Shown piece by piece: positions 1,382 to 15,615 of a stretch of DNA of 21,657 nucleotides (positions are counted from its first letter, which is position 1; every line of letters begins with the position of its first letter). Made by a program: the position numbers and the translations under genes. This DNA is from a virus. The stretch is from positions 1 to 21,657 of the IMG/VR virus record IMGVR_UViG_3300031951_021131. One strand, 5' to 3'. The notes beneath the pieces are model-generated. The model saw nothing but the letters and a program-made list of their open reading frames with translations. It had not been told where the DNA came from and did no database searches.

Positions 1382-1469
1382 AGTCGCGAGTCGCGAGTGG
1401 TCAGTGCTGAGTGCTGAGTGCTGAGTCTTCTTTTTATTTGCCATTTGCCATTTGCTATTTGCCATTTGG
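1382..1469. repeat. Tandem heptamer arrays (AGTnnnn x7, then yATTTGC x5)
   Basis: Seven consecutive 7-bp units starting with AGT run from 1382 to 1430: AGTCGCG twice, AGTGGTC, AGTGCTG three times, AGTCTTC. After a short T tract, five units of (C/T)ATTTG(C/G) run from 1435 to 1469. The block fills almost the whole gap between two phage genes. The same two arrays, in the same order around a pyrimidine tract, recur at 1799-1873 and, inverted, at 11190-11260. Confidence 0.9.
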
Positions 1470-1471
1470 TC

Positions 1472-1783
1472 TCACCCCGCTACGGCAAACGTCGGCTGCA
1501 CCACGGCGGTGGTGGTCTTGCTGGAGGCGGTCTTGAGGTAGACCTCCCGCACGGTCGGCATTGAGCCGACGACGCAGCGGAACGAGACGTTCATCCCCGG
1601 GCCCACCCATCCGAAGTCGGTGGCGCCGTGCAGGGTGGGGATGCGGACATACAGGTCCTCGGCCCCGGTGTTGGTGACGTTGACCTCCGAAACCGCAGGA
1701 CCATCCGCGCCGCCAACCGCGTTGGAGGCAAAGACCCGGGCTTCCACATCCGTCACCGGAACATTGACCGAAACACGAGCCAT
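1472..1783 (-). CDS. Small beta-rich protein, probable virion accessory protein
   Basis: This 103-residue protein starts at ATG 1783 with AAGG about eight bases upstream. It has no signal peptide or membrane span. Alternating hydrophobic residues (VSEVNVTNTGAEDLYVRIP, then REVYLKTAS) and few charges suggest a single beta-sandwich domain. The pattern 'VTNTGAEDLYV' followed by a glycine/proline turn (VGPGMNVSFR) resembles small accessory or decoration proteins in other phages, by general character only. It lies directly downstream of the major capsid gene in transcription order, but a 189-base gap with two hairpins and repeats separates them. It may be made in different amounts from the capsid protein. 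I do not recognise a named family. Confidence 0.7.
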   Translation of the reverse strand: MARVSVNVPVTDVEARVFASNAVGGADGPAVSEVNVTNTGAEDLYVRIPTLHGATDFGWVGPGMNVSFRCVVGSMPTVREVYLKTASSKTTTAVVQPTFAVAG

Positions 1784-1798
1784 AGTGAGAACCTTTCA

Positions 1799-1873
1799 AG
1801 TCGAAAGTCGCGAGTGGTCAGTGCCGAGTGCTTTTTCTTATTTGCTCTTTGCAAATTTGCCATTTGCCATTTG
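1799..1873. repeat. Second copy of the composite heptamer arrays
   Basis: Five AGTnnnn heptamers run from 1799 to 1833 (AGTCGAA, AGTCGCG, AGTGGTC, AGTGCCG, AGTGCTT). A TTTCTT tract and then degenerate ATTTGCt, CTTTGCa, AATTTGC and CATTTGC units follow to 1873. Order and strand are the same as at 1382-1469, but units are more diverged and fewer. Confidence 0.85.
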
Positions 1874-1903
1874 TCTTCGCGGGGCGATGCCCCGCGAAGA
1901 CAA
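1871..1903. terminator. Perfect 15-bp inverted repeat downstream of the capsid gene
   Basis: The arms at 1871-1885 (TTGTCTTCGCGGGGC) and 1889-1903 pair perfectly around a 3-base centre. On the leftward transcript the hairpin forms about 70 bases after the capsid stop codon. It is followed by AAATGG rather than a U-run, so it is not a canonical Rho-independent terminator. It could act as an attenuator, protect the capsid mRNA 3' end, or be a dispersed palindromic repeat. Confidence 0.6.
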
Positions 1904-11123: not shown

Positions 11124-11144
11124 TGTCACAGGGGGTGTGTGACA
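11124..11144. promoter_or_regulatory. Inverted repeat upstream of the HTH gene, possible operator
   Basis: TGTCACA at 11124-11130 and TGTGACA at 11138-11144 form perfect 7-bp arms with a 7-base spacer. Centre-to-start distance is about 28 bases upstream of the HTH protein's ATG. Size and symmetry suit a dimeric HTH regulator. No clear promoter is visible in the repeat-filled sequence behind it. Confidence 0.45.
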
Positions 11145-11149
11145 CGAGA

Positions 11150-11326
11150 GGGCCGAGGGATCAAGGGACCAAGGGACCGAGGGTGTGAAAATGGCAAATG
11201 GCAAATGGCAAATGGCAAATAAGAAAAAAGCTCAGCACTCAGCACTCGATCCCTTGCTCCCCCAGTCCCTCAGTCCCTCAGTCCCTCTGTCCCTCAGTCC
11301 CTCGATCCCTCGCTCCCTCCCCCCCC
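11150..11326. repeat. Intergenic gap composed of 7- and 8-bp repeat arrays
   Basis: Almost the entire 177-base gap is repeats. At 11155-11185 there are AAGGGACC/GAGGGATC-type octamers. At 11189-11220 there are four-plus ATGGCAA heptamers (the inverse of the ATTTGCC array). At 11230-11248 there are CTCAGCA/CTCAGCACT heptamers (the inverse of AGTGCTG). At about 11249-11320 there are octamers of the form CAGTCCCT, CGATCCCT and CGCTCCCT. Order and composition are the reverse complement of the arrays at 1382-1469, with an added octamer block. No gene or clear promoter is seen. Confidence 0.9.
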
Positions 11327-12034: not shown

Positions 12035-12192
12035 CCGGTGGTCAGAGTCGCAAGTGCTGGGGGACAAGGGATCAAGGGAGCAAGGGATCAAGTGCTTTTC
12101 AGAGCCCCCGACTTCAGTCGCGGGTGCCTTTTTCAGCCGCCTTGGCCTTTGGTGGCACGGCTCTCCAGAGCCGTGCGTCTTTCTCTCTTGAA
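12035..12192. repeat. Repeat-filled gap with two dispersed palindromes
   Basis: This segment carries AGTCGCA and AGTGCTG heptamers at about 12047-12060, then AAGGGATC/AAGGGAGC octamers to about 12090. A hairpin sequence (CCCCCGACTTCAGTCGCGGG, about 12105-12124, one mismatch in the stem) follows. The perfect inverted repeat GCACGGCTCT-CC-AGAGCCGTGC occupies 12155-12176, with a CTTTCTCTC tract beside it. Both palindromes resemble dispersed REP/MITE-like elements. No gene is apparent. Confidence 0.8.
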
Positions 12193-12732: not shown

Positions 12733-12815
12733 TCAGCCACCCTCGATCCCTCGATCCCTCACCCTCGGCCCTCGGCCCTATCCCCTCGGCCCTTCCTATT
12801 TGCCATTTGGACTCC
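12733..12815. repeat. Degenerate octamer and heptamer repeats overlapping a gene end
   Basis: CCCTCGAT/CCCTCGGC/CCCTCACC-type octamers run from about 12741 to 12792, and TATTTGCCATTTGG heptamers lie at about 12797-12810. The block overlaps the last 19 codons of the next gene, whose stop lies at 12759. Confidence 0.75.
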
Positions 12816-14129
12816 CCCTCCCCTCCCCGCCCGCTCCGCCGCCCATCCCGCCCGCTCCTCTTCGATCTTCTTCAGCAGTTCCGCCATCGCCACCGACACT
12901 TCGGCGGTGGTGACGCCGGCGGTGTGCACCGCGTACCGCGGGTCGTCGGCGCGGGCCCCGCGCGGGCGTGCGTGGTGCGGCACCGCCAGGTCCGCGGAGA
13001 CCTGCACGTTCCTGATCTCGCCGATCTTCCCCGTCGCCGGGGCGCTCTCGAAGAGCACGTTCTCGATCGCCCCGCCGCCGATGAGCGAGCCCTGCCGCAC
13101 CTGCCGCATGAGCGTGAGGTACGCGTGCCCGACCATGGCGCACAGGGCCACGTGGGGCTGGTGCTCGACGCCGTCAATCTCCCACCGCGTCCGCCCGGTT
13201 TCGCGGTCCGTGTACCGCCGCACGATCGGCGTCCCGTCGCTGCCGGGTCGGCTGCGCGGCCCGCGATACTCAGAGGGAAGCAGGTCGTAAAACTCGTCCT
13301 CCTCACGCTGCCGCCCGCCACCCCCCTCACTGGCGCGGGGTGCTTCCTTGTCAACCACGCCGTCAGTCAGCGCCACACCACCACCACCACCACCACCCCG
13401 CCCCCCCGACGCACGCACGCCCTCGCCGCGGCCTTCGCCAACCCCGTGCTCATCCCGCTCTCCGTGCCCAACAAGCACGCCGTCGTCGTCGTCGTACTCA
13501 TCACCGCCCACGCTCGCGTCCATCGCCGCCGCCTCTTCGGCGGAGATCCGGCCACGATCCCCACCCCCCTTTCCACCACCAGCGCCCGTCACATCGGCGC
13601 GGTTCTTTGTTTGCTGCGGTCCACGCCGTCCGGTGCGTGGTTGGGCGTTTTGGCCCTGCTCGGCGGCGTAGCTCTCGCGGCCGAGTCGGCAGACCATCTC
13701 AGCGGCACCGGCGCCGCCGTGGAGTGCTTCCTCCATCGCCGCGTCGAGCCGCTGGACCAGTTCGCGGTAGCGCCGGGCCTCGGCGTGGTCGTCGCGCAGG
13801 GCCACGTCGTACCGCCGCGCCCCGCTGTAGACCGAGTCCGCGCAAGCAAGCTCGCACGCGGCCGCCACGTGCGGGGCGGCGAACCCGCGCACGCGCAAAA
13901 GCCAGTGCATCACCGAGTACCCGCGCCGCGTGCGAAGGACCACCTCGGCCCGCCGCGCATGGTCGTTGGGCCTCCGCCCCACCGGCGGCAGAACATCCTT
14001 CGGCGTCATGCCCAAAAGCTCAAAGGCCACGCGCGCCGCAAGCACCGCCCGCCCGCGAGCCACCACACTCCCCAGCCGGGCCTCGTTCATCACCACCTCG
14101 CCACTCCCCGCAACGTGCACACCCATCAT
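12759..14129 (-). CDS. Large unknown protein with disordered acidic/Gly-rich middle
   Basis: This 456-residue protein starts at ATG 14129 (second ATG 14126), with AAGGAG eight bases upstream, and overlaps the preceding stop. The N-terminal domain (about 1-150) is Ala/Arg-rich and helical: VVARGRAVLAARVAFELLGM, EVVLRTRRGYSVMHWLLRVR, ARRYRELVQRLDAAMEEALH. Residues about 170-290 are low complexity, with GGGKGGGDRGR, DEYDDDDGVLVGHGERDE and a Gly run encoded by CCA repeats. The C-terminal domain (about 290-430) contains YDLLPSEYRGPRSRPG, RRYTDRETGRTRWEIDGVEH and AVSVAMAELLKKIEEERAGW-like sequence. Family unknown. The final residues (QMANRKGRGDRAEGRG) are encoded by intergenic-type repeats. It lies between the methyltransferase block and packaging genes. 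Confidence 0.7.
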   Translation of the reverse strand: MMGVHVAGSGEVVMNEARLGSVVARGRAVLAARVAFELLGMTPKDVLPPVGRRPNDHARRAEVVLRTRRGYSVMHWLLRVRGFAAPHVAAACELACADSVYSGARRYDVALRDDHAEARRYRELVQRLDAAMEEALHGGAGAAEMVCRLGRESYAAEQGQNAQPRTGRRGPQQTKNRADVTGAGGGKGGGDRGRISAEEAAAMDASVGGDEYDDDDGVLVGHGERDEHGVGEGRGEGVRASGGRGGGGGGGVALTDGVVDKEAPRASEGGGGRQREEDEFYDLLPSEYRGPRSRPGSDGTPIVRRYTDRETGRTRWEIDGVEHQPHVALCAMVGHAYLTLMRQVRQGSLIGGGAIENVLFESAPATGKIGEIRNVQVSADLAVPHHARPRGARADDPRYAVHTAGVTTAEVSVAMAELLKKIEEERAGWAAERAGRGGGVQMANRKGRGDRAEGRG

Positions 14130-14395
14130 CGCCCTTGCTCCTTCTTCTTCTCTCGCCCCCGCACCGCGCCGGTCACGACCGCCGCCGGCACGCCATACGC
14201 CACACAGGCCACAAGCGGCCCTGTCTCTTTGAACGCCATCGACAGCGACCCGACAAAGACCACCCGCAGCACGCACACGGCGAAAGTCCACGCCCCAGCG
14301 GCCCACGGCGTGCCGTGCGTCGCGCGGTAGCGGTTCTGGTAGGCCACGGCCTCCAGAGTCCCGACGACGACCAGCAGCACCAGGGCGGTGGTCAT
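14126..14395 (-). CDS. Small membrane protein of unknown function
   Basis: This 89-residue protein starts at ATG 14395, overlapping the methyltransferase stop as ATGA. It has three hydrophobic segments: residues 4-16 (ALVLLVVVGTLEA), about 34-53 (AGAWTFAVCVLRVVFVGSLS) and about 58-76 (TGPLVACVAYGVPAAVVTG). A basic tail (RGREKKKEQGR) follows and would face the cytoplasm. Between the first two segments lies YQNRYRATHGTPWA. It is translationally coupled on both sides. The size would suit a holin, but it is far from the lysis-like genes, so I leave it unassigned. Confidence 0.7.
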   Translation of the reverse strand: MTTALVLLVVVGTLEAVAYQNRYRATHGTPWAAGAWTFAVCVLRVVFVGSLSMAFKETGPLVACVAYGVPAAVVTGAVRGREKKKEQGR

Positions 14396-15615
14396 GGTGT
14401 CGCTCCGGTGAAAAGCGACGCATCACCGATCACGCGCGGGTCCGCGAACGTCTGCGGTCGCTCAGCCTTGCCGATTCGGATGCGGGCCAGTTCGGCGTAC
14501 TTCGGGTTCAACTCGCAACCAACGCCGTGCCGTCCCAACTCGCGGGCGACGGCAACCGTGGTGCCAGATCCAAGGAACGGGTCCAGCACAACGCACGGTA
14601 CAGGATGGTGCGGCGGGCATTGGCATGACGGCTCCCATGCGATGGTCTTCGAAGACACCCCCGCGACGGTATTTGCGCATGAATTGCCCGTGCCTTCCTC
14701 GCCATCGCGTTTGGTGAAGTCGTTTGGGCGCTCGCGCGTCAACTTCGTTCGCTCAACCACCCGCGTCCACGGCGCTCCGCACGATGGGCAGCACCCCTTC
14801 TCGCTGGTGCCGGCCTTGATCGCTCGGCGGGGAATCTCGGTGGGGAAGGTGGCGAAGTGTGCCTCGGCGTAGGGCTCGGGGCCGAGGTTCCAGACGTTGC
14901 GTTGATTCCGGCCACTCGGCCATTCGGGACGGTCGCCTGAATACGTCGGGTTCCCGTTATTCCCCGCGTGCTTCACACCACCGATGGGTGGCATTCGACC
15001 GCCAGCGGCGGGGCGTTCAACACCGTCGAGCGTGCCAACGGGGGGACGCTGATCGTTCGGCCAAGCGAGCGCCTCCTTCACCGCCTCCGCGTCGTAGAAG
15101 TACCGCTCTTGCTTCGCCAGCAGATAGATCGGCTCCCAGCTCGACGTGGGCCGGTCGCGGCACGACTCGGGCATCGGCGACTTCTTCGCCCACACGATCT
15201 TGGAACGCACGTACCACCCGTCCGTCTGAAGCGCTAGCACCACACGCTCGGGGATCATGCAGAGGTCTTTGGGCTTGCCCCACTTGATTCGCGGCGACGC
15301 GGATGCCTTCTTTCTACCGTTTACGTCCCCATCTTGATTCGTATCAAACCCACTACCTTGGTTGGCGTTGTACGAATCGCCGATGTTCAACCACAGCGTC
15401 CCGTCGCGCAGCACGCGCCACACCGCGCGGAACACCGCAACCATTTTTCCCACGAACGCCTCGGGCGACTTTTCAAGCCCGATCTGCCCGTCCACGCCGT
15501 AGTCGCGCAAGCCCCAATAGGGCGGGCTGGTGACAGCGCAATGCACCGACCGCTCAGGCAGCGTGTTCATCATCTCGATGCAGTCGCCGACCAAGATTCG
15601 TGCGCCCTCACTCAC
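14392..15615 (-). CDS. DNA methyltransferase, amino type (SPPYW, beta order)
   Basis: This 407-residue protein starts at GTG 15615 with GGAGG six bases upstream, overlapping the preceding stop as GTGA. It is an amino-methyltransferase of the N6-adenine/N4-cytosine fold. Motif IV, TSPPYW (29-34), comes first, and the S-adenosylmethionine motif I, DPFLGSGTT (345-353), comes near the C-terminus: the beta-class order. SPPYW favours N4-cytosine, but this cannot be settled by eye. A long middle region (80-340) includes a cysteine cluster, CCPSCGAPW (275-283) and CQC (331-333), that may bind zinc. No endonuclease partner is adjacent. A phage enzyme of this kind would protect its DNA from host restriction or mark it. 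Both ends are coupled to neighbours. Confidence 0.92.
   Translation of the reverse strand: MSEGARILVGDCIEMMNTLPERSVHCAVTSPPYWGLRDYGVDGQIGLEKSPEAFVGKMVAVFRAVWRVLRDGTLWLNIGDSYNANQGSGFDTNQDGDVNGRKKASASPRIKWGKPKDLCMIPERVVLALQTDGWYVRSKIVWAKKSPMPESCRDRPTSSWEPIYLLAKQERYFYDAEAVKEALAWPNDQRPPVGTLDGVERPAAGGRMPPIGGVKHAGNNGNPTYSGDRPEWPSGRNQRNVWNLGPEPYAEAHFATFPTEIPRRAIKAGTSEKGCCPSCGAPWTRVVERTKLTRERPNDFTKRDGEEGTGNSCANTVAGVSSKTIAWEPSCQCPPHHPVPCVVLDPFLGSGTTVAVARELGRHGVGCELNPKYAELARIRIGKAERPQTFADPRVIGDASLFTGATP

Follow-up and report, generated by a model that had tools for sequence, protein, structure and literature searches.

A composite of intergenic heptamer repeats in a phage and the dispersed repeats of a Phycisphaerales genus

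Tandem heptamers positioned between genes and present in many copies per genome are known from cyanobacteria, where they are termed STRRs. The phage sequence considered here raises the question of how AGTnnnn heptamers, a pyrimidine tract and ATTTGCC heptamers came to follow each other in the same order in separate gaps between genes, and whether such composites have been copied as units or have arisen by separate slippage events. The window, as the whole stretch of DNA analysed is called here, is the complete IMG/VR record IMGVR_UViG_3300031951_021131 of 21,657 bases, which encodes on its minus strand a lambda-type head module (large terminase gpA, portal, S49 protease, major head protein and small terminase) and contains three DNA methylase-like ORFs. 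Relatives of its TerL share 25-33% identity only.

Anatomy of the repeat loci

The AGTnnnn heptamers (module A), the pyrimidine tract (Y) and the ATTTGCC heptamers (module B) occur in the order A-Y-B in three gaps (U1, U2 and U3), at the places where the initial annotation had located them, and partial forms are found in two more gaps (U4 and U5; Table 1). An octamer module C (GGGANCAA type), which had been overlooked, participates in three of the five phage loci and breaks the simple A-Y-B order in two of the five. In the alignment, A directly adjoins Y without a spacer in U1 to U4, and U1 with U3, as well as U3 with U4, can be aligned across the module junctions. Module B of U2 is of a different subtype than module B of U1 and U3. 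Adjoining U2, a perfect hairpin (TCTTCGCGGGGCGATGCCCCGCGAAGA) is located at window positions 1874-1903; GGGGCATCGCCCC was not encountered in any other sequence compared. Equally, U5 encodes the 3' end of ORF 12759-14426 (window 12759-12812), so that arrays can be read into protein.

Table 1. Positions of the repeat loci and their modules in the window
Feature	Position	Strand	Content
U1, whole composite	1382-1469	+	A-Y-B
U1, module A	1382-1426	+	AGTCGCG x2, AGTGGTC, AGTGCTG x3, AGT; prefix AAGTCGCGAGTCGCGAGTGGTC
U1, tract Y	1427-1435	+	CTTCTTTTT; directly abutting A
U1, module B	1436-1469	+	ATTTGCC/ATTTGCT array
U2, whole composite	1799-1873	+	A-Y-B
U2, module A	1799-1831	+	degenerate; AGTCGAA, AGTCGCG, AGTGGTC, AGTGCCG, AGTGC
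U2, tract Y	1832-1839	+	TTTTTCTT
U2, module B	1840-1873	+	carries irregular GCAAATTTGC, common to host copies
U3, whole composite	11189-11247	-	A-Y-B, reversed
U3, module A	11231-11247	-	AGTnnnn heptamers
U3, tract Y	11221-11230	-	pyrimidine tract
U3, module B	11189-11220	-	ATTTGCC heptamers
Octamer array C before U3	11250-11319	-	GGGACTGA type on minus strand
Octamer array C after U3	11148-11183	+	GGGANCAA; inverted relative to 11250-11319
U4, whole locus	12044-12100	+	partial; A remnant, octamer array, then AAGTGCTTTTC; without B
U4, remnant of module A	12044-12059	+	
U4, octamer array C	12061-12091	+	inside A
U4, A/Y junction	12090-12100	+	AAGTGCTTTTC; aligned with U2 and U3
U5, whole locus	12739-12810		partial; octamers, TTCCT, then ATTTGCCATTTGG; without A
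U5, octamer array C	12739-12761	-	
U5, Y and B	12793-12810	+	TTCCT (Y), ATTTGCCATTTGG (B)

The four arrays of period 7 and five arrays of period 8 in the window compare with means of 0.01 and 0.02 and a maximum of 1 in 300 dinucleotide shuffles of the window, and arrays of period 4, 5, 10 or 11 are absent from it. The phage arrays thereby possess the tandem unit of 5-11 nt in longer runs than expected by chance that characterizes the heptameric SSR/LSSR class; a similar bias to period 7/8 can be seen in the genomes G004, G001 and G338. A layout in inverted pairs was considered as a rule for the phage and rejected, with 3 of 12 arrays compared to 16% in controls.

The modules in the putative host genus and beyond

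In the genus of G004 (Phycisphaerales MAG JACVCS01, Desfum bin_9_GBBB08), copies of all three repeat types, A, YB and C, are dispersed over intergenic positions. With U1 as a query, at least 51 and at least 50 matches were obtained in two genomes of this genus, which cover either A or B and hardly ever both; the best among the matches listed connects module A of U1 to G004:C34 with 98% identity over 45 nt (E 4e-15). Window-type octamers gave 36 matches in G004 and 16 in G505 and none in the 20 other planctomycete genomes of the 22 searched. Host-genus A consists of AAGTCGCGAGTCGCGAGnGGTC followed by AGTGCTG heptamers, while YB reads TCTT-ATTTGCC-ATTTGC(AA)ATTTGC.. and, as TT directly precedes ATTTG in 10 of 15 host YB copies (typically TCTT/ATTTGCC), Y is part of B, constituting its 5' end. 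Y, although initially listed separately, is thus not an independent module. Several host YB copies have the irregularity GCAAATTTGC, which breaks the 7-nt phase of B, in common with U2, and several host A copies have the prefix AAGTCGCGAGTCGCGAG..GGTC in common with the phage. Both types are intergenic (YB in 15 of 15 and A in 12 of 13 copies) and located apart from each other, with no same-sense A up to 120 nt away from any of 15 YB copies and no B near any of 13 A copies. Arrays resembling GGGAATC also occur in G004. At one locus of G621 (L433), two YB copies lie approximately 126 nt apart with flanks that look similar, which suggests a larger tandem duplication including YB.

The palindrome CACGGCTCTCCAGAGCCGTG at window positions 12154-12176 (given also as 12156), near U4, was otherwise encountered only in G004 loci among all sequences compared. 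Furthermore, the tetranucleotide correlation of the phage is highest with G004 (0.856 versus 0.18-0.82 for five others); a homologue of the MCP was not found in G004 or G621. Judged by repeats and sequence composition, the probable hosts of the phage are Phycisphaerales closely related to the genus of G004, and the phage repeats would be host-derived.

Individually, the heptamers are distributed more widely. ATTTGCC arrays have a wide but scattered distribution, with at least 118 stretches in Anaerolineae, Thermoflexia, Phycisphaerales, Acidobacteria, rumen Clostridia, Nostoc and others. AGTGCTG arrays were detected in 51 viral stretches and are clumped in Phycisphaerae, where 11 of 298 genomes possess them, most of these at many sites, and the rest none. 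Searches for the A-Y-B composite yielded no further viral contig, and neither the 294 genomes of a phylum sample nor the 61 genomes of the family of G004 contained a match; three matches in the 298 Phycisphaerae genomes, none a repeat composite, and one in a set of seven Phycisphaerae genomes (in G621) are chance-like. The search patterns for the composite differ in strictness, with some being strict, and all of them would miss U2, save perhaps for a chance match. Among the sequences searched, the A-Y-B fusion is thus found in this phage alone. The module counts that the initial annotation called for reveal A and YB as dispersed but separate repeats in the inferred host genus.

Array layout in other replicons is diverse. 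The 40.8 kb phage contig IMGVR_UViG_3300005578_000008 (L146, L152, L160, L168, L180) contains about a dozen AGTGCTG arrays, several of which are followed by the inverted form. In a sample of the 7.2 Mb Phycisphaerae genome G338 (L346-L365), an inverted partner is present within 200 nt for 27 of 35 period-7/8 arrays (77%; control 6.6%), whereby arms match within a locus and units differ between loci. Equally, with gene edges defined by a simple codon-usage gene caller and not by annotation, the 5' end of A arrays in other Phycisphaerae is the end nearer to an ORF edge in 18 of 19 loci (median 6 nt versus 72 nt, p 8e-5), with values of 6 of 9 (not significant) in the genus of G004, 23 of 35 (p 0.09) in viral contigs and, for the 5'-ORF proximity of B arrays, 8 of 18.

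Origin of the composite

We consider it rather probable that dispersed 7/8-nt repeats of the host lineage were joined and copied in the phage in a mainly neutral process of mutational and recombinational spread. Irregularities common to different copies indicate copying and not repeated slippage and, together with the common A prefix and the abutting A/Y junction, argue for copied units rather than separate slippage events, the part of the initial proposal that is upheld. The simplest reading would be one fusion with subsequent duplication among phage gaps. The phage would have carried repeat types A, YB and C of the G004 genus, and, as the abutting junction suggests, an A and a YB would have been joined directly in the phage lineage. 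Recombination or template switching between gaps that already contained similar repeats is the most likely way in which the joined unit may have reached other gaps. Polymerase slippage, to which the differing unit counts point, would then have altered the copy number within arrays, and some copies (U4, U5) may have acquired octamers or lost one of the two halves. Repeats at gene edges would do little harm, with any effect on transcript ends being secondary. As the B subtype of U2 differs and only three full composites exist, at least one of them could have been assembled separately.

That each gap gained A and YB independently, whether drawn from the repeats of the host or produced by slippage, with the order reflecting chance or an insertion polarity at gene edges, is possible, if unlikely. 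The fixed A-Y-B order is by itself weak evidence, because the chance that three junctions of two modules agree in their arrangement, out of four possible ones, is 1 in 16, and the abundance of A and YB as separate repeats in the host genus as well as the deviating B of U2 would agree with independent gain. The spacer-free junction in four phage loci, as opposed to the 15 host YB copies with no A in their vicinity, speaks against it. A further reading, which we view as rather doubtful, assigns the repeats to the replication and repair machinery of the host, which would write lineage-specific 7/8-nt repeats at ORF edges of any replicating DNA, phages included; if true, the intergenic arrays of a phage would record its host. 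The gap downstream of the MCP fits this reading. Since no close phage relatives were found in IMG/VR by portal and MCP peptides, empty sites were compared not at the nucleotide but at the protein level, by way of four prophages from the same family, whose MCP homologues have 23-28% identity. This gap contains A-Y-B in the phage, is without arrays in prophages L447 and L448, and contains CAAAGCT heptamers and GGCATCGA octamers in L449 and AGATGGCC octamers in L446, contents that fit host-written repeats. Insertion-free homologous gaps, as looked for at the outset, thus exist, although at such a distance they are not strict empty sites.

The array-free gaps of two prophage relatives speak against a selected cis-element, an RNA-level signal, located for instance at transcript ends or ahead of start codons, that the phage would keep for gene expression. 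In accordance with such an element, which we nevertheless hold to be improbable, every phage copy sits at a gene boundary, A arrays in Phycisphaerae abut ORF edges, and a role in translation has been proposed for TAACTGA heptamers (PMC4679880). Furthermore, a strong RNA fold (z -4.8) is obtained for the stretch 11140-11325, in which the octamer arrays flanking U3 in inverted orientation pair to give a long predicted hairpin. The composites themselves, on the other hand, show weak folding or none (z -2.07, +0.44, +1.80 and +2.22), the strong fold of the U2 stretch being mostly due to the adjoining hairpin; U1 and U2 run opposite to their genes, whereas U3 runs along its genes, and no Rfam family match was found. 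We find neutral filler at gene edges to be more probable than an element under selection. A small non-autonomous mobile element of the MITE or REP type, mobilized in trans by a host-encoded RAYT transposase or similar enzyme, could account for dispersal, intergenic location, the irregularities in common that imply copying and a host-type palindrome near U4, but appears very improbable, as terminal inverted repeats or target duplications were not seen at the phage composites, U1 and U3 lack a palindromic structure at the RNA level and the unit number varies freely. A transposase or retron that could mobilize the repeats, as looked for at the outset, did not materialize either, with no transposase or reverse transcriptase, the hallmark of retrons and diversity-generating retroelements, found among 26 ORFs of the window (Pfam). 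As, in addition, A and YB are separate in the host genus, the composite was found nowhere else among the sequences searched and octamers interrupt two of the five loci, a mobile composite, the other part of the initial proposal, is not supported.

Relation to known heptameric repeats

The resemblance to STRR-type repeats noted at the outset is borne out, as the modules are likewise tandem heptamers between genes with many copies per genome. Membership in the cyanobacterial STRRs does not follow, since the units deviate from the STRR consensus and the host lineage concerned is Phycisphaerales; composite structure, accompanying octamer arrays and the planctomycete lineage are further differences. 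Being mainly intergenic and dispersed, with all three module types in the inferred host genus and five loci in the phage, the repeats belong to the known intergenic heptameric class (STRR/LSSR/GGGAATC type). Within this class, GGGAATC in Xanthomonas and GGGGA(C/T)T in Nostoc are dispersed intergenic heptameric SSRs, some in inverted pairs, with GGGAATC-type repeats located nearer to the 5' than to the 3' neighbouring ORF and none of the heptameric SSRs found on plasmids (Rehm et al. 2015, PMC4692102). The phage repeats resemble them in the unit of 7, intergenic location, dispersal and the occurrence of some inverted pairs, and A arrays in other Phycisphaerae, though not significantly those in the genus of G004, have the same 5' polarity; the present repeats differ in that they are located on a phage, with two families fused in one order, and AGTGCTG and ATTTGCC contain no GGG and hence lack the G runs of a quadruplex unit. 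Similarly, TAACTGA repeats of Beggiatoaceae and Cyanobacteria are short heptamer arrays near gene starts in few scattered lineages with unexplained origin, a scattered occurrence reminiscent of the present repeats; they consist of one unit only, and composites or phage copies are not described in the portion of the article considered (MacGregor 2015, PMC4679880). Heptanucleotides are the commonest class of long simple sequence repeats in most genomes studied, for which slippage has been proposed (Mrazek et al. 2007, described in PMC4679880); as a length statistic for simple repeats, the LSSR concept alone does not explain irregular units copied between loci.

New here are the presence on a phage, the fusion of two families and the evidence of copied units. 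Heptameric intergenic repeats are known in few bacterial lineages, with origin and role unexplained, and the occurrence of the same families in a phage and one Phycisphaerales genus provides a second, fast-evolving replicon for testing the spread of repeats. Equally, the repeat families are a possible marker to link uncultured phages to their hosts.
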